DNA from: a virus
Direction: 5' to 3' (one strand)
IMG/VR virus record: IMGVR_UViG_3300026512_000013
Coordinates: 1 to 62,174 of that record
DNA: 62,174 nucleotides
Under the pieces are notes generated by a model, which ran no database searches, had not been told where the DNA came from, and saw nothing but the letters and a program-made list of their open reading frames with translations. Below are positions 4,979 through 59,838 of this stretch, in pieces. A program made the translations under genes and the position numbers. Position 1 is the first letter of the stretch. Each line of letters starts with the position of its first letter.

Positions 4979-5007
4979 ATTATACTACAAGTAATATGTT
5001 AAGTCAA
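4979..5007 (-). promoter_or_regulatory. Early promoter with mirrored -35 (gene 4585)
   Basis: TTGACT (5002-5007), 17-base spacer, TATAAT (4979-4984). A 13-bp inverted repeat TTCCTTGACTTAA/TTAAGTCAAGGAA (4967-4979 and 4999-5011) places one arm over the -35 and the other over the -10 and first transcribed bases. The leader then has ATACATAAGA. Confidence 0.8.
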
Positions 5008-5060
5008 GGAATTTTTACTATTTATTTTATTATTCTATGTTATTTTATTCTATGTTATTT

Positions 5061-5489
5061 CTATTGATAATTAATATCTTTTATTAATTCATTTGTTAAT
5101 TTATACTTTATTTCATTCCCAATGAAATCAAACCAATCATCAACATTTTCTAATACATCACAAAATTCTTCTGGTGTTAAATGTTTCATAATATAATCAG
5201 TATCAAACATTAATTTTAAAAACTCATATTCATCTACTATACGTATTAAAAACTCTTTGAGTGTGATTTTACGAGCAAATAAGTACTTAAAGAAATCAGT
5301 ATCATATAAATTTTTATTGTTTAATTTTATAACAGTTTCAGTATAAATTTTTAAATTTTTATAAGTTTCTTCAATGCAATAATTCATACATATTTGATTG
5401 AATTTCATTAATTCAGTAAATTGTTTAACTTTTAATTTGTCATTTTTTAATTTGTTATTTTCTAATTGTTTTAATTGTTTATTTTTCAA
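5061..5489 (-). CDS. Hypothetical protein, 142 aa, TTG start
   Basis: Unrecognised. The longer frame reaching 5576 begins upstream of the promoter at 5545-5573, so it cannot be the real start. The best start is TTG at 5489 with GGAAGTG ahead, giving MKNKQLKQLENNKLKND. The N-terminus is a run of Lys/Asn/Leu repeats and the rest is helical and acidic (TPEEFCDVLENVDDWFDFIG). The gene at 5597 has the same initiation site. Confidence 0.65.
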   Translation of the reverse strand: MKNKQLKQLENNKLKNDKLKVKQFTELMKFNQICMNYCIEETYKNLKIYTETVIKLNNKNLYDTDFFKYLFARKITLKEFLIRIVDEYEFLKLMFDTDYIMKHLTPEEFCDVLENVDDWFDFIGNEIKYKLTNELIKDINYQ

Positions 5490-5544
5490 TTTGTCACTTC
5501 CTTTTAATATTATTCTAATGTATCCCACTTGTTTAACTAACTTC

Positions 5545-5573
5545 ATTATATCATAGTAGTATAATGAAGTTAA
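5545..5573 (-). promoter_or_regulatory. Early promoter with inverted repeat (gene 5061)
   Basis: TTAACT (5568-5573), 17-base spacer, TATAAT (5545-5550). The arms GTTAACTTCATTAT and ATAATGAAGTTA mirror each other across the spacer. Confidence 0.75.
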
Positions 5574-5596
5574 CATTTATTTACTTATTTTTATTA

Positions 5597-5839
5597 TTAA
5601 AATTCATCTAACCATTCTAAAAATTCATTAATAGTATTATCTGTTATTACTAAAAAATTTGCATACCTTGAATCACTAAAACTACACCATAGTATATAAA
5701 TTCGATATATTGATATATATTCAATTGAATTATCAATATTTTGTAATTTTGATTTAATTTCATAAATACTGTTTATATACTCATCTGGGATAATTTCTTC
5801 TTTTTTTATTTTTTTAAATATCATTGCTGTTAATTTCAA
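5597..5839 (-). CDS. Hypothetical protein, 80 aa, TTG start
   Basis: Unrecognised small protein with IYRIYILWCSFSDSRYANFL in the middle and a C-terminal NTINEFLEWLDEF motif resembling the end of the gene at 5945 (NKINEFLYKIK), so the two may be distant paralogues. The TTG at 5839 follows GGAAGTGACAAA, the same context as the gene at 5061. The leader contains an AGAGAATTA/TAATTCTCT hairpin. Confidence 0.6.
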   Translation of the reverse strand: MKLTAMIFKKIKKEEIIPDEYINSIYEIKSKLQNIDNSIEYISIYRIYILWCSFSDSRYANFLVITDNTINEFLEWLDEF

Positions 5840-5905
5840 TTTGTCACTTCCTTTTTTAATTTTAGAGAATTACTTTTTAATTCTCTTTCCTCTATTTCTA
5901 AATAT

Positions 5906-5934
5906 ATTATACCACTATTAATATTATAAGTCAA
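5906..5934 (-). promoter_or_regulatory. Early promoter (gene 5597)
   Basis: TTGACT (5929-5934), 17-base spacer, TATAAT (5906-5911). Confidence 0.75.
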
Positions 5935-5944
5935 ACATTATTTA

Positions 5945-6199
5945 CTATTTAATTTTATATAAAAATTCATTAATTTTATTATTACTTATGATATATCTAT
6001 ATAAATTATTTTTAGTATATAAGTATTCATTATTTTTAAATTTTTTATATATACATTTTTCTAAAAATTCAACATCAACTTTTTTCCATCCTATTGTATA
6101 CCAATTATTTCTAATTTTAGCTTCTTGATATATTAAAATCTGTTTATTTTCTAATATGTAAGAATTTCTATCATTCAATAAATTACTATTGTTTTTCAT
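5945..6199 (-). CDS. Hypothetical protein, 84 aa
   Basis: Unrecognised basic protein rich in Asn, Lys and Tyr, with no membrane segment or cysteine cluster. ATG is preceded by AAAAGGATGG and by its own promoter at 6248-6276. The ending NKINEFLYKIK resembles that of the gene at 5597. Confidence 0.65.
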   Translation of the reverse strand: MKNNSNLLNDRNSYILENKQILIYQEAKIRNNWYTIGWKKVDVEFLEKCIYKKFKNNEYLYTKNNLYRYIISNNKINEFLYKIK

Positions 6200-6247
6200 T
6201 TTAATACCATCCTTTTATAATTTTACTGTATTTCCTTTGATACTCTT

Positions 6248-6276
6248 ATTATACTATAAGTAATATAATAAGTCAA
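6248..6276 (-). promoter_or_regulatory. Early promoter (gene 5945)
   Basis: TTGACT (6271-6276), 17-base spacer, TATAAT (6248-6253). Confidence 0.75.
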
Positions 6277-6325
6277 ACATTATTTATAATATTTATTTTA
6301 TTATTTATTTTAATTAATTTTAAAT

Positions 6326-6355
6326 AAAAAAATGCTACTATATTAATATAGTAGC
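6326..6355 (-). terminator. Intrinsic terminator
   Basis: GCTACTATAT/ATATAGTAGC forms a perfect hairpin (6334-6355), followed on the minus strand by a run of seven T. Confidence 0.7.
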
Positions 6356-6634
6356 TAAGCAATTGTATATTATAGCAAAAAGGTTGGTACAAAACTATAA
6401 TATTTTATCGGTAATTAATTACATAAGATATTATTAAATATCATTAGAAATCAAGTATTATACACGCATATACACGCAAGTATAATATCTTATGTTATGA
6501 ATTTACACAGTATTAAATTGTAGTTGTGTATATACGCATTTATTAAATATTACTGTATTTCTAACATTTTTATGTTTAAGAAATACAGTAATAACAACAG
6601 TTTCTTCAAGTGTAAATTATAAATTTTAAGTAAA
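6356..6634 (-). other. Gene-less segment with nested inverted repeats
   Basis: Downstream of the HTH gene and upstream of the terminator at 6326, with no reading frame. It holds three inverted repeats: ACATAAGATATTAT/ATAATATCTTATGT (6421-6434 and 6482-6495), ATTACTGTATTTCT/AGAAATACAGTAAT (about 6549-6562 and 6579-6592), and AATTTACAC/GTGTAAATT (6505-6513 and 6610-6618). It also has two ATACACGCA words. It could be a structured 3' RNA or a separate regulatory RNA. Confidence 0.5.
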
Positions 6635-40697: not shown

Positions 40698-42651
40698 TTA
40701 AAATTTAATAGTCTTTCTTTGTTTAGTACCTTTATTAGGTTTAACATACTCTTTAAATTCCCACTCTTTAATAATTAACTGTGGGTATTCTTTTCCTTCA
40801 TACTCATTAATATCAGCAGTACATACACAAGTAATTTCTGTTTTAGCCCAGCCTTTTGTCAAGTTAAATCCTTTTTTACTTACGCCTCTTAGAGCTAATA
40901 ACTCTTTATCGTTACCATGATATTTTATCATAGCAATATTCGGGTTTTTAGTTATTTTTAAAATCTTTTGTTTATTCCCCATTAAAGCAACATCATTCTC
41001 TACATTAATTACAGCTTTAACTATAAACAATGGAGTAGGTAATGTATTAGAGCCAAATATATCATGGTATTTATATATATCTTTAATATCTTTAGTTTTT
41101 AATCTATTTAAATTAGTAATAAAATCTACTAAGAATACAGGTTTCATTTCGTAGTCTTTATATGCTTCATTCATTTTAGCTAAATCACTTTCTAATTTAT
41201 CTACTTCTATAAAACAACCAAATGCACTATCATGCCCCAATCCAATTATATCACTATATTTACCTAAATCACCCCTAAAATCTTCAACAGGACTATCATC
41301 ATAATTTCTACCTGAGCCAGTATATTCACCATCTATAATATTTTTTAATACTAATGTAGGTCTTTTATATTTATTTGCTATCTGACTTGCTATAACTCCT
41401 GATAATTTCCATTTACTTGGTTCGTCAAAATAATCTATCGCATTAACAATTATAATTTTATTTTCATATAATTTATTATTAACAATATCTTCCTCACATT
41501 GTTTGGCTATTTTCTTAGCCCATCTTGCTTGAGTTCCTCTTGCATTAGTGCATAATCTCATTATTTCTTTTTGAATACTTCTAATCTCAATATCTGGCTT
41601 AGGGTCAGTTTTAACCTTACGTCTTGGTTGGTATTCCACTAACTCAGTAGAACCTGTCATACTTTCTATTAATTTTAAAGTATCATTTCTACTGCCAACT
41701 CTTGCCATTGCATTTCCCATTGGTGCTACTTCCCAGCCTATAGTTTTAAATGAGAATTTACTAAACATATAGCCTGTTAATTTTTCAATTAATTCTCTAA
41801 TATATAAATTTTCTATCTCATCTGCTTTATCTTCATTAAATAAAGCAAGGTCATCATTTAACATTGCAATACCTTGTAAAGCTAAATAACGTGTTTCATA
41901 TGCTCTCATATCCATCATATCACTTACTAATCCCATAGCTACATAAGGTAAATAATAATCTGCTTTATTTATTTTTAATTTCTCATCTATTGCTTGACAA
42001 GTTTTATATACTACTGCAACTCCTGCAATTTGCTTATTAGGATAGTCACAAGTTTGTGGGTTAACCAATACATCAGCAGGATGATTATCTAAAGCTTCTT
42101 GCTCTGAATTGTATTTTTCTGTGTTATAAAATATGGGATGATGGTCTAGGATTACAATTACTAACTCTTTATTCCATTCTTTTAAATATTCTATCATCTC
42201 AGTATCACTTGTACCAGCATCAGGAACAATTAATAAATTAATTTTATTCATAATTTCTTCATTCTCTGCTCCATCAAATAAATCTTCTTTATTTAATCCA
42301 TGCTTTCTGTGTAAATTATGAATTAATATATGAGAGTCAATATCAAATACATCTTTAATATATCCTTTTGTTGTAGCTGTACTTGTTATTCCGTCAAAGG
42401 TCTCCATCCAACAAGATACCTACCTCTACCTCCTTGCTATTTAACATTTTAATTAATAAATCACTTGCCTCATCTACATTTTTTAATCTACTCCAATGGT
42501 AAACATCATCTTGAGATACTTTTAATAACTCATCTGCATTTTCTACATTCCTTGTTTCCAATAAATAATTAATTACTTTACCTTCTACATCAGAATAATA
42601 TTTCATTCCTGAAGTACCATTCTCTCTTAATTTATAATCCAATAGTATCAC
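40698..42651 (-). CDS. recJ: RecJ-type single-strand exonuclease, expressed through a +1 frameshift, 650 aa
   Basis: DHH-family 5'-3' exonuclease. The first frame (42394-42651, 85 codons) ends VYHWSRLKNVDEASDLLIKM, then VGILLDGDL-stop; the second (from 42407) begins METFDGITSTATTK. Alone, each half lacks part of motif I. A +1 slip at CTT-TGA-C joins them as ILLDGDLDGITSTA, restoring D-x-D-x-D-G. Downstream: VPDAGTSD, ILDHHPIFYN (DHH motif), and GSGRNYDD, then GLGHDSAFGCFIE (DHHA1). The N-terminal frame aligns with the usual RecJ start, so the split is not an intergenic accident. Confidence 0.85.
42393..42405 (-). promoter_or_regulatory. Programmed +1 frameshift site in recJ (RF2-like CTT-TGA-C)
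   Basis: Coding strand GGAGAC-CTT-TGA-C. CTTTGAC is identical to the slip site of bacterial prfB. GGAG two bases before CTT can serve as the internal Shine-Dalgarno that prfB also uses (there with a three-base gap). The A of the stop is followed by C, the weak termination context known from RF2. Confidence 0.75.
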
Positions 42652-42672
42652 TCCTTAATCTATAATCTAAAA

Positions 42673-50081: not shown

Positions 50082-50930
50082 TTAAAATAAATTATTAGTT
50101 GCATTTCTTTTTGACTCTTTACTACTGTCTAAATAAATTTGAGTAGTAGTAATTTGTTTATGGTTCATTAACTCTCTTACAGTATTAATATCAGTAACTT
50201 TAATAGCCATAGATGCAAATGAAGCTCTTAAAGTATGAGTATGTTGTAACTCAATATCATTAGTAACTAATTTAAGATATTTTTTAGCAACTCTCTCAGC
50301 ACTTCTATTAGATAATTTAGTCTTTTGATTAGATAAAAATAAATAATTACTATCTACATTAGGTCTCTCATTGTTAATATAGTTATCAATACTCTTCATA
50401 GCTTTATCATTAATAGGCAATACTCTACGCTCTCCTCCTTTTCTTATAATAGTAACTTCATTAGTATCATAATTAATATTGTTTAATTGAACATTGCATA
50501 TCTCATTTAATCTCATTCCTGTTGCTAATGATAAAGTAATAAAACATTCATCTCTTAAATTTTTCTTTTCAATAGATAATAACTTATTAACTTGAGTCTC
50601 ATTTAAAGCTCTACGTTTAGTATCATCTTTCTTAATTTTAAAAGTTCTTAATTTAAGAGAAGGATTGCTTTCAATAACTTCAATATCAGTTAGAAAACTA
50701 TAATATTTTTTTAATGAAACAATATAATTATTAATAGTGTTTAAGCTCATAGAAGCCATTCTAAGCTCTTTTATTATGCTTGCCAACTCAAAGTACCTAG
50801 AGTTGATTAAATCGTGTGTATGGGCGATTTTGACAACGTTAGAGCTATATTTATCAATACTTAATTGTGCTAAATTCTCATTGTATCTCATATAGTCTTT
50901 CCATTCATTAATATAATTATTAGTTTTCAT
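50082..50930 (-). CDS. Tyrosine recombinase (integrase/Xer type), 282 aa
   Basis: N-terminal SAM-like DNA-binding domain (MRYNENLAQLSIDKYSSNVV). Catalytic residues in order: ATGMRLNEICNVQL (Arg), IIRKGGERRVLPI (Lys), HTLRASFAS (His-x-x-Arg), MNHKQITTTQIYL (His and Tyr). Short and Xer-like, without a large core-binding insertion. It may integrate the element or resolve multimers if it replicates as a plasmid. Monocistronic with its own promoter; no att site is obvious. Confidence 0.88.
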   Translation of the reverse strand: MKTNNYINEWKDYMRYNENLAQLSIDKYSSNVVKIAHTHDLINSRYFELASIIKELRMASMSLNTINNYIVSLKKYYSFLTDIEVIESNPSLKLRTFKIKKDDTKRRALNETQVNKLLSIEKKNLRDECFITLSLATGMRLNEICNVQLNNINYDTNEVTIIRKGGERRVLPINDKAMKSIDNYINNERPNVDSNYLFLSNQKTKLSNRSAERVAKKYLKLVTNDIELQHTHTLRASFASMAIKVTDINTVRELMNHKQITTTQIYLDSSKESKRNATNNLF

Positions 50931-52798: not shown

Positions 52799-53365
52799 TT
52801 ATTTAGTAAAAACCCCACGACTTCCGTCACCGTTTTTCAAAAAATGGTAGCCAAGCGAAAGAAACAGAGCATCTGAGCCATATGTATCCTCTGCATCTGT
52901 AGGGTCTCTGAATAATCTAAACCCTATTATATCACCTATATTTATATTAGTACCATCAATAACTTGAAACTCTACTACTTTATGAACTCTATCTTCATCA
53001 TCGGTAGAGTCTACTGCATCTAATGTTACAACAGTTGTTGGAGCATTATCTACACTAAATATACTGTATTCTAATTGCCATTTAACATCGCCTGCGTTAG
53101 CATTATCAGCACACCAATGAATATGAGGTCTTAAATCTGAACCCACAAAATAACTATGTGGTATCTCAAAACTTCCACTCATTTCTTCTGTTGTCGATGC
53201 TCCATTAAAACCATACACATCAATATTACCGATTAAAGTTTTCTTATCTGGTCTAGCAGTCCCACCTTGAATAGTATAAGGTAATAGTATAATATCGTCC
53301 CATACTGTGTCGGAATGAAAACCTTTATCCAAGTCTACACCTGTTGTTACTGTTTCATAACTCAT
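52799..53365 (-). CDS. Phage structural protein with an H-x-H-W core, 188 aa
   Basis: SGSFEIPHSYFVGSDLRPHI, then HWCADNANAGDVKWQLEYSI, is a pattern found in many phage structural proteins (F-x-x-P-H-x-x-x-x-G-S-D-L-x-P-H-x-H-W). Beta-sandwich, ending YGSDALFLSLGYHFL. The start overlaps the stop of the endonuclease-like gene at 53362 as ATGA. Confidence 0.65.
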   Translation of the reverse strand: MSYETVTTGVDLDKGFHSDTVWDDIILLPYTIQGGTARPDKKTLIGNIDVYGFNGASTTEEMSGSFEIPHSYFVGSDLRPHIHWCADNANAGDVKWQLEYSIFSVDNAPTTVVTLDAVDSTDDEDRVHKVVEFQVIDGTNINIGDIIGFRLFRDPTDAEDTYGSDALFLSLGYHFLKNGDGSRGVFTK

Positions 53366-54561
53366 TCTACCGCCTCCAATTTTATAATTCTTTCATTTTT
53401 TATTCTTTCCATATTTTCAAAATTACTATATTCACACCATCCAATTTTAGTCCCTCTTCTTAAATATTTTTTTATAGTTTCAGGATGTAAATTATAACAT
53501 GTTGATAGTGCTGACACAGATTTTCCACTTTTAAAATCTATCGATATATCTTTAACTACTCCTTTTTGGGAATCAGAATAAACTCTAATCCAATCTACTC
53601 TTTCCATATGAAAATGCTGTTTTAAAGATTTTATACACTGGTTTTTAATGTATTCAAAATTTGTTTTTTTTAAATTAATAATAATATAATTGTTCTTTTT
53701 TATATTATTATTTATAGCTAAATCAAATTTTATTTTATCATTTTCTTTAATCTTTTCAAGTGTCCACTTACCCCACCCAACACTTCTATTATAATGTATA
53801 CATCCATGAGCTTCAATTATAATATTTTTTTCTGGAATATAAAAATCATATCTTTTACTTTTAGCCCATTCTGGAGAATATTCTCTCTCATACGTAATTT
53901 TAATTTGATTTAATACATTCTTAACAATGTTTTCAGACATATATGTTGCATCCCCACAAATTGGACAATTATAACCGTATAAATATAAAGAGTAAATTGG
54001 TTTCACTTCCTCAAACCCGCAAATTGGGCAAATTACATTAACCTTATGTTTTGAATGGCATGTATAGCTAAATGCCTCATTTTTATTTTTAAAATATTGA
54101 ATTAAATCTTTTCTATTTTCCCCTACACTACCTCTTTTGTTCACAATATTTTTAATGCGACTATTTACAATACTTTCCATTGTACATATATCACATCCAA
54201 GTATACTTTTCTGAGATAAACGAGTCCAACTAATTTTAAAATAATGATTATGTTTTTTACAAAAGAATGTTAAAAGTGAATGAGTATTAATATACGTACT
54301 TTTATTAAACATTAATTTTAAGTCACTATTATGAATAATTAAATACCTTTGTATATTATATAGAACATATTTATTTGAATTATAAAATGGCTTCGAAACA
54401 CCACTTTTCTTTAATTTTTTTATTGTGACTCTTAAAATATACCCATTAACATCATAACAATATATAGGGGCAATTCTATTTTTAATTGATTCCCCTTTTA
54501 TTAATGAAAGGTTATTTTCCTTTAACATTCTTAAATAATTATCTCTTAATTTTTTATTCAC
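53362..54561 (-). CDS. Zinc-finger plus Vsr/EDxHD-like homing endonuclease, 399 aa
   Basis: GTG start with AGGAAGTGG upstream. Repeated zinc fingers: CDICTMES, CPICGFEE, CPICGDAT. Nuclease part: YEREYSPEWAKSKRYDFYIP, then NIIIEAHGCIHYNRSVGW, the D-F-Y-I-P and E-x-H-G-x-x-H-Y signature of Vsr-like phage homing nucleases. The C-terminal region VSALSTCYNLHPETIKKYLR looks like a DNA-binding helix pair. It interrupts the appendage gene cluster. Confidence 0.75.
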   Translation of the reverse strand: MNKKLRDNYLRMLKENNLSLIKGESIKNRIAPIYCYDVNGYILRVTIKKLKKSGVSKPFYNSNKYVLYNIQRYLIIHNSDLKLMFNKSTYINTHSLLTFFCKKHNHYFKISWTRLSQKSILGCDICTMESIVNSRIKNIVNKRGSVGENRKDLIQYFKNKNEAFSYTCHSKHKVNVICPICGFEEVKPIYSLYLYGYNCPICGDATYMSENIVKNVLNQIKITYEREYSPEWAKSKRYDFYIPEKNIIIEAHGCIHYNRSVGWGKWTLEKIKENDKIKFDLAINNNIKKNNYIIINLKKTNFEYIKNQCIKSLKQHFHMERVDWIRVYSDSQKGVVKDISIDFKSGKSVSALSTCYNLHPETIKKYLRRGTKIGWCEYSNFENMERIKNERIIKLEAVE

Positions 54562-59106: not shown

Positions 59107-59838
59107 TTATTCACTTAATCTATCTATCATAGCCCAAAATACATAAGGCTCAATAGTTTCATTTTTTAAATTTTCTATATGCTCTTCTGGATTATTTAAA
59201 AAACCTTTTTTAGCTAAATTATTAATTGATTTTACAGCTAAATTATTTTTCCAATTATCTTTATCATTATCTTCTTTTTTATTATTTAATTTAATATTTA
59301 CAAAATCTTTAACTTGTTGTTTAAATTCAATAAATTTATCTTCATAAATGACAAAATATTTATGACAATTTTTACCTGTAATATCAAAATGCCTTATAAC
59401 ATCTTCTATTGGGTTTAAATTATACTCAATACATAAATCAGATACTCTATCAATCAAAGTTAAATAAGTATCTAAACTCATAAATCCTTCATCTGTAGTA
59501 TGAGTACACTCAATAGAATAAATACTATCATTAGGGTATTTACCTAACTCTTCAGCTAATCCACTTTCATTATAATAATAATCATTATTAGCACAACCAT
59601 ATGATATTTCATTATCTGGAATAATAACCCATACATCACCCGATAAATCAATAATTTCTTGACTGCTTCCGTATCCTGTCTTACCATTCTTTCTATTTTC
59701 AAAAAATTGTCTATTTTGCTTAGCTGTAGTATTACTATTACCTACCCAATGTATTACTAACTTTTTAATTTCCTTTAACTCTATTTGAGGTCTACTATAT
59801 TTATTTGGAGTTAAATAATCCGTTATTATTTTATACAT
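59107..59838 (-). CDS. Endolysin, N-acetylmuramoyl-L-alanine amidase, 243 aa
   Basis: Cuts the amide bond between MurNAc and L-Ala at the end of infection. Amidase_2 pattern: KLVIHWVGNSNTTAKQNRQF (first zinc His), SYGCANNDYYYNES, YSIECTHTTDEGF, and DVIRHFDITGKNCHKYF (second His and Cys/Lys site). The C-terminal 60 residues probably bind the cell wall (AVKSINNLAKKGFLNNPEEH). Followed by appendage genes and preceded by the C1A-SLH gene. Confidence 0.88.
   Translation of the reverse strand: MYKIITDYLTPNKYSRPQIELKEIKKLVIHWVGNSNTTAKQNRQFFENRKNGKTGYGSSQEIIDLSGDVWVIIPDNEISYGCANNDYYYNESGLAEELGKYPNDSIYSIECTHTTDEGFMSLDTYLTLIDRVSDLCIEYNLNPIEDVIRHFDITGKNCHKYFVIYEDKFIEFKQQVKDFVNIKLNNKKEDNDKDNWKNNLAVKSINNLAKKGFLNNPEEHIENLKNETIEPYVFWAMIDRLSE

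Follow-up and report, generated by a model that had tools for sequence, protein, structure and literature searches.

The minus strand of the 62,174-nt viral DNA analysed here (the window) carries a phage recJ gene whose first frame stops at CTT-TGA-C within catalytic motif I, while the +1 frame downstream of that site holds the remainder of RecJ. Very probably, full-length phage RecJ is produced from this gene through a +1 programmed ribosomal frameshift, driven by a cassette of the release factor 2 (RF2) type that would operate outside prfB. On the minus strand the site reads GAT-GGA-GAC-CTT-TGA-C, followed by GG (Table 1). The initial annotation had described an 85-codon frame ending in CTT-TGA-C with the rest of RecJ in the +1 frame, and both frames indeed match PHROG 2484 (RecJ-like ssDNA exonuclease); the T run that it placed at 42397-42399 was one base off, the actual run being 42398-42396. 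The first ORF as listed (42651..42394) comprises 85 aa, and the +1 frame, which opens with the GAC at 42395 and closes with a stop whose last base is 40698, comprises 565 aa. When CTT-T is taken as one step, a stop-free reading of 650 aa with no further interruption is obtained, or 647 aa from TTG 42642. This TTG is, from its sequence context, a more likely start for recJ than the listed GTG 42651, because the GTG overlaps the Shine-Dalgarno AAGGAG, which lies eight bases before the TTG; the 85 codons originally counted would thus become 82. Three of the four relatives compared have Met in the column of the window's TTG. Residues are numbered throughout on the 650-aa joined protein (P0003), in which the Leu of the slip codon is Leu85.

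Table 1. Coordinates of recJ features in the window, with the strand and the basis of each assignment.
Feature	Position	Strand	Basis or remark
Slip site CTT-TGA-C	42393..42399	-	Sequence; same site in L011
CTT; TGA; trailing C	42399-42397; 42396-42394; 42393	-	Sequence
GGAG, internal Shine-Dalgarno-like putative stimulator, 2 bases 5' of CTT	42402..42405	-	Sequence and duplex energy
AAGGAG, likely recJ ribosome-binding site	42651..42656	-	Sequence; eight bases 5' of TTG 42642
recJ zero frame, TTG start, 82 sense codons and TGA	42394..42642	-	N-terminal part up to the slip-codon Leu
recJ +1 frame, Asp86-Gly87 of motif I through DHH and OB to the stop	40698..42395	-	
ATG in the +1 frame, possible start of a separate second product	42405..42407	-	Product without Asp82 and Asp84
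AAGGAGG, additional strong Shine-Dalgarno-like stretch inside recJ, 29 bases 5' of the slip codon	42429..42435	-	

CTTTGAC alone is not rare in the window, where the two strands hold six copies against 3.83 expected, and at least six were obtained in 19 of 100 shuffles. The junction in recJ is not a chance occurrence because there the heptamer joins two frames that each match RecJ. Judged by profile matches, the gene belongs to the RecJ-like putative ssDNA exonucleases of PHROG 2484: the 85-aa first frame alone covers profile positions 10-73 (6.8e-8), and the joined protein positions 10-560 of 564 (4e-108). In Pfam, the joined protein matches DHH (PF01368, 3.6e-9) and, below the cut-off of 27, RecJ_OB (1.1e-5, 25.8 bits). 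It had been claimed that the slip rebuilds motif I in register within a 650-aa product, and the joined product does restore this motif exactly, because none of Asp82, Asp84, Asp86 and Gly87 is substituted in any of the 25 aligned rows (the joined protein plus 24 full-length relatives); D169, H170 and H171 are likewise invariant across the alignment. Structure prediction gives the joined protein a RecJ fold, with a mean pLDDT of 86.9 (91 at residues 81-90) and, as top fold match in the PDB, the RecJ of Staphylococcus aureus (8y30; E 1.6e-30, TM 0.69 by query length, 20% identity).

The same invariant residues bear on the idea that the locus encodes two separate proteins, a short frame up to the TGA and a long frame restarting at ATG 42407. 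Such an arrangement would make use of the +1-frame ATG, which begins 11 bases before the zero-frame TGA, but it appears very improbable, given that the restart product (METFDG) would be without Asp82 and Asp84, and that a second phage recJ with the same site (L011, described below) has no ATG there, its +1 frame opening with a TTG 15 codons before DG. The AAGGAGG at 42429-42435 is distant both from the slip codon and from the ATG at 42407.

Next to recJ, the window encodes a DnaB-type helicase, a primase-like protein and DNA polymerase III alpha. The order helicase, primase, RecJ, DNA polymerase III alpha is common to the window and Geobacillus virus E3, and the order helicase, yorJ, RecJ, DNA polymerase to the window and SPBc2. 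YorK of SPbeta, PHROG 2484, is of the same protein family as the window RecJ, but YorK and nearly all other examined homologues are read in a single frame, unlike the window gene. The window has a G+C content of 25%, no tRNA genes were found in it, and it looks like part of a temperate phage because of its matches to an integrase (50082-50930), an HNH/homing endonuclease (53362-54561) and an endolysin (59107-59838). A release factor match (PF00472) was present in neither of the two phage records searched (the window and L011) and in 10 of 14 control genomes.

Two viral homology searches yielded 422 and 420 hits to relatives, and the best 80 of each were taken into the analysis. No close relative of the window RecJ was found by homology search, and the search for close relatives of the L011 RecJ returned L011 alone. 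Among the 113 distinct recJ loci checked, which include L011 as the head of its homology query, +1 shifts were flagged only in L011 (CTT-TGA-C) and L085 (CCC-TGA-C), both of them in motif I; the criteria were a premature stop, a short frame upstream or a second matching piece, and a frameshift lying over 430 codons beyond motif I, towards the 3' end, would have escaped them. L011 (also L131; IMGVR_UViG_3300014613_000017) is a 127-kb phage contig whose RecJ is 29% identical to that of the window. Its zero frame ends in GAT-AAG-GAT-CTT-TGA-C, at the exact codon used in the window, its +1 frame continues with DGFTSAAE, and AAGGA stands one base 5' of the CTT. This contig was retrieved by a pattern of CTTTGAY at the motif, so that its CTT and TGA are selected features; its RecJ identity, its open in-register first frame and its AAGGA are unselected. 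L085 (IMGVR_UViG_3300025534_000155) came from a homology search without slip-site selection. Its zero frame reads VQVDP before the TGA and its +1 frame DTDGYCSA, CCC-TGA-C falling at the first DxD step, one DxD unit earlier than in the window. Across five other ORFs on this contig, CCC makes up one of 43 Pro codons, the relatives with Pro at the same slip position, as found with a simple pattern, all have CCA (10 redundant loci), and L097, the closest neighbour of L085 in the tree at 72% identity, has an uninterrupted recJ.

These two genes are central to judging whether the interruption in the window is a defect. An otherwise ordinary recJ, altered by a single-base error of sequencing or assembly or inactivated by a genuine insertion, would be compatible with several observations: one inserted base next to motif I would suffice, the window is a single IMG/VR record, nearly all examined relatives are uninterrupted, and single TGAs occur within recJ-family contigs L062 and L200. 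We consider an error unlikely, however, because the distant recJ of L011 carries CTT-TGA-C at the same codon. Moreover, L085 has a different shift-prone site one unit before that position, no further frameshift was flagged among the 113 distinct loci, the 650-codon reading contains no stop elsewhere, and the slip-flanking residues together with the strongest Shine-Dalgarno pairing of the set (see below) are unlike what errors produce.

Contigs were also scanned with patterns fixing parts of motif I, which other spellings would escape. The scan of viral_contigs with CTTTGAY at the motif returned 17 stretches, of which L011 was the sole RecJ by tblastn. The 8 stretches of a second pattern scan all lay within those 17, and a third returned 6, its two new ones (L129, L130) being non-RecJ. 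A fourth scan gave 12 stretches, with RecJ only on the L085 contig, and there was no RecJ among the 26 stretches of the genome_contigs scan. In INPHARED, among the matches listed (60 of 175 and 60 of 178, in overlapping sets), all were in one piece starting before residue 86, and in plasmids, among the matches listed (30 of 58), all recJ genes were in one piece. Across 398 genomes of one bacterial phylum there were 77 matches, probably for the most part host RecJ, none with an internal stop and each beginning no later than profile position 63, ahead of motif I. The frameshift site is thus not a conserved trait of the recJ family. The initial annotation had expected the slip site to be conserved in related phages, and this expectation was not borne out, nearly all examined relatives being uninterrupted and without CTTTGAC; their uninterrupted genes speak against a family trait, yet absence alone does not make the window site an error.

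Other kinds of interruption were also met among the 113 loci, namely TAG recoding in three cases, a point TGA in two and one insertion. L062 (recJ at 5000-6500) and L200 (2500-4000) contain one in-frame TGA each, where the near-identical contigs (L081; L197, L199 and L203) have Cys and Trp, and these TGAs are probably point changes or errors. The phage recJ genes of L020, L094 and L210 contain several in-frame TAGs, which we take to be read as Gln; TAG recoding accounts for these interruptions. L020 is Phass-1, a record labelled 'code 15 clade', in which the RecJ match spans three annotated hypothetical proteins that make up one RecJ when TAG is an amino acid. In L084:47-2862 (IMGVR_UViG_3300025000_001791), recJ is split by an insert of ~1.3 kb, after which RecJ resumes; the insert presumably encodes a GIY-YIG-like stretch, and has the look of a group I intron or an element of that kind.

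The surroundings of the slip codon were compared over motif I in 162 loci; with two L085 copies set aside, these gave 90 distinct intact contexts. Between their first two Asp stands S (38), V (15), C (14), E (10), P (7), A (5) or L (1), and in none of the 90 the Gly of the window or the Lys of L011; the codons for this Gly and this Lys, GGA and AAG, contribute to GGAG and AAGGA. A Leu preceding the third Asp occurs in one of the 90. The 15 bases that precede the slip codon pair with the anti-Shine-Dalgarno core ACCUCCUUA at -6.4 kcal/mol in the window and -6.0 kcal/mol in L011; the relatives average -1.4 (sd 1.8), none of the 90 being as strong as either and two coming near at -5.9. In L085 the corresponding value is -3.1 over 15 bases and only -0.4 over the last 10, and this gene is therefore regarded as having no near Shine-Dalgarno stimulator. 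A GGAG two bases before the CTT had been noted from the start and is found at 42405-42402; it had been likened to the Shine-Dalgarno of prfB, and its pairing is strong, but its sequence and spacing differ from those of prfB. Altogether, the Shine-Dalgarno-like stretch and the slip-flanking residues look to be under selection.

The frameshift could nevertheless work without any regulatory role, as a saviour insertion tolerated because the site slips well. This is quite possible, though we lean somewhat against it, and since it shares the frameshift mechanism its probability is contained within the one that we assign to frameshifting as a whole. It would agree with the sporadic distribution of the sites on the RecJ tree and with the case of Flavobacterium johnsoniae, in which the prfB frameshift was removed at no obvious fitness cost (PMC8710568); the Shine-Dalgarno-like stretch and the residues seen in 0 of 90 relatives, which look selected, count against it.

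Codon usage was tallied in the 64 other ORFs of the window, where CTT accounts for 119 of 1,297 Leu codons and GAC for 138 of 1,011 Asp codons, and where TGA ends 5 of the 64 ORFs, never with a C after it. In an 18-kb stretch of the L011 phage, CTT represents 38 of 266 Leu and GAC 39 of 170 Asp codons, which makes the codon choice at the L011 site less striking. A recoded genetic code for the window recJ was rejected, as TGA ends those five ORFs and there is no other stop in the gene. As to a stimulatory RNA structure, none notable was found downstream of the window site (z-scores -0.70 to +1.01), and this candidate was rejected too. Transcriptional slippage adding or dropping a base in the mRNA could likewise join both frames, but the run consists of three T only, and such indels usually occur in homopolymeric A or T runs (PMC3711429), so that we give this route hardly any weight. 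Programmed +1 frameshifting of the RF2 type, as initially proposed, is well supported by the identical site in L011, by the CCC-TGA-C of L085 and by the adaptation of residues and Shine-Dalgarno stretch. Counting against it are that searches found no close relatives in which the site is kept, that nearly all homologues examined are uninterrupted, that the Shine-Dalgarno spacing departs from that of prfB, that a second strong Shine-Dalgarno stretch stands farther upstream, that no notable RNA structure follows the site, and that one added base would be enough to create each of the three sites.

In prfB itself (PMC12421855), a Shine-Dalgarno-like AGGGGG precedes the CTTT slip site at a distance of three bases, the premature stop is present in 8,164 of 12,753 genomes (64%) and is TGA in >99% of surveyed genomes, and a C after the TGA weakens termination. 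When RF2 is slow, the peptidyl-tRNA moves its pairing to the +1 frame; the short product undergoes degradation (PMC5009743). The recJ site of the window resembles this cassette in its CTT, its TGA, the C after it and the Shine-Dalgarno-like stretch just upstream, and also in having a short first frame, the functional portion of the protein being encoded in the +1 frame (PMC12421855 and PMC8710568). It differs in that the gene is a phage nuclease, recJ, and not RF2, so that there is no autoregulation, and in that the site is sporadic in recJ and widespread in prfB. Moreover, the AAGGAGG upstream in the window is a second strong Shine-Dalgarno, whereas PMC5009743 describes prfB cassettes as having no competing Shine-Dalgarno upstream. 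The Shine-Dalgarno stretches also differ: GGAG at 2 bases in the window and AAGGA at 1 in L011, compared with AGGGGG at 3 in prfB. According to the title of a 2010 article by Devaraj and Fredrick, short spacing promotes +1 shifting. By analogy, the window cassette would work like that of prfB, outside the prfB autoregulatory system. Every +1 entry of RECODE with CUU before the stop is prfB according to the PRFect article (PMC10885494). As far as we have found, RF2-type CUU-stop cassettes have been described only in prfB, and no programmed frameshift in a phage recJ was found among the open-access papers listed.

Phages are not strangers to +1 slips at a shift-prone codon before a stop. In PMC4759559 and PMC5009743, such shifty stops are reported for Listeria PSA, for the lactococcal 936 phages (CCC.UAG) and for SPP1, and they add a C-terminal part to a virion protein, the frameshift of PMC4759559 being located in a tail gene. 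The CCC-TGA-C of L085 resembles these phage shifty stops. The recJ of the window differs from them in that its zero-frame product is without the catalytic core and the enzyme requires the shift.

When 112 RecJs are arranged in a tree, the shifted genes fall at three separate places; three changes are placed on it, and the starred branches force at least two. Grouping the window and L011 as one clade was rejected (p-AU 0.0127) in a test on 42 of the 112 rows, which were hand-picked after the first tree had been seen and run under a simpler model. Separate origins are supported rather than proved by these results, because the window and L011 both form long branches. From the sequences, the cassette probably arose more than once, and the three known cases may represent three separate origins; a single gain with many losses is a possible alternative history.

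The two frames, the slip site, its pairing potential and the recurrence in other phage recJ genes can be read directly in the DNA, and we infer that slippage takes place, with some efficiency, and that it responds to RF2. In the proposed mechanism, the ribosome would begin at TTG 42642 and read 82 codons up to the CTT, at which point the weak stop UGA-C would occupy the A site. The GGAG upstream would then pair with the anti-Shine-Dalgarno of the 16S rRNA and strain the pairing in the P site, the leucyl-tRNA would slip from CUU to UUU, and translation would resume at GAC (Asp86) in the +1 frame to yield the 647-aa enzyme. Were RF2 to arrive first, an 82-aa piece without the later catalytic motifs would be released. 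By analogy with prfB, RecJ output would be expected to rise when RF2 is short.

Motif I could be a favoured place for such a site: its Asp codons are GAY, one extra T turns them into TGA-Y, and the motif may favour these sites because the protein made after the slip is unchanged by an extra T before GAY. A broader and more doubtful proposal is that motif I (DxDxDG) is a recurrent switch point, where large phages of several lineages would separately have placed a shift-prone stop (CTT-TGA-C or CCC-TGA-C) and so make a replication nuclease in proportion to RF2 failure.

In annotation, genes of this kind have the appearance of being disrupted and may be split into two calls. If the frameshift reading is true, the RF2-type circuit would be separable from autoregulation and could gate another enzyme on termination, and phages would carry the cassette within the catalytic motif of their own replication and repair nuclease. 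If the broader proposal were also true, RecJ would be a sensor-driven enzyme, going up when host termination is limiting, as in intense late translation or starvation.
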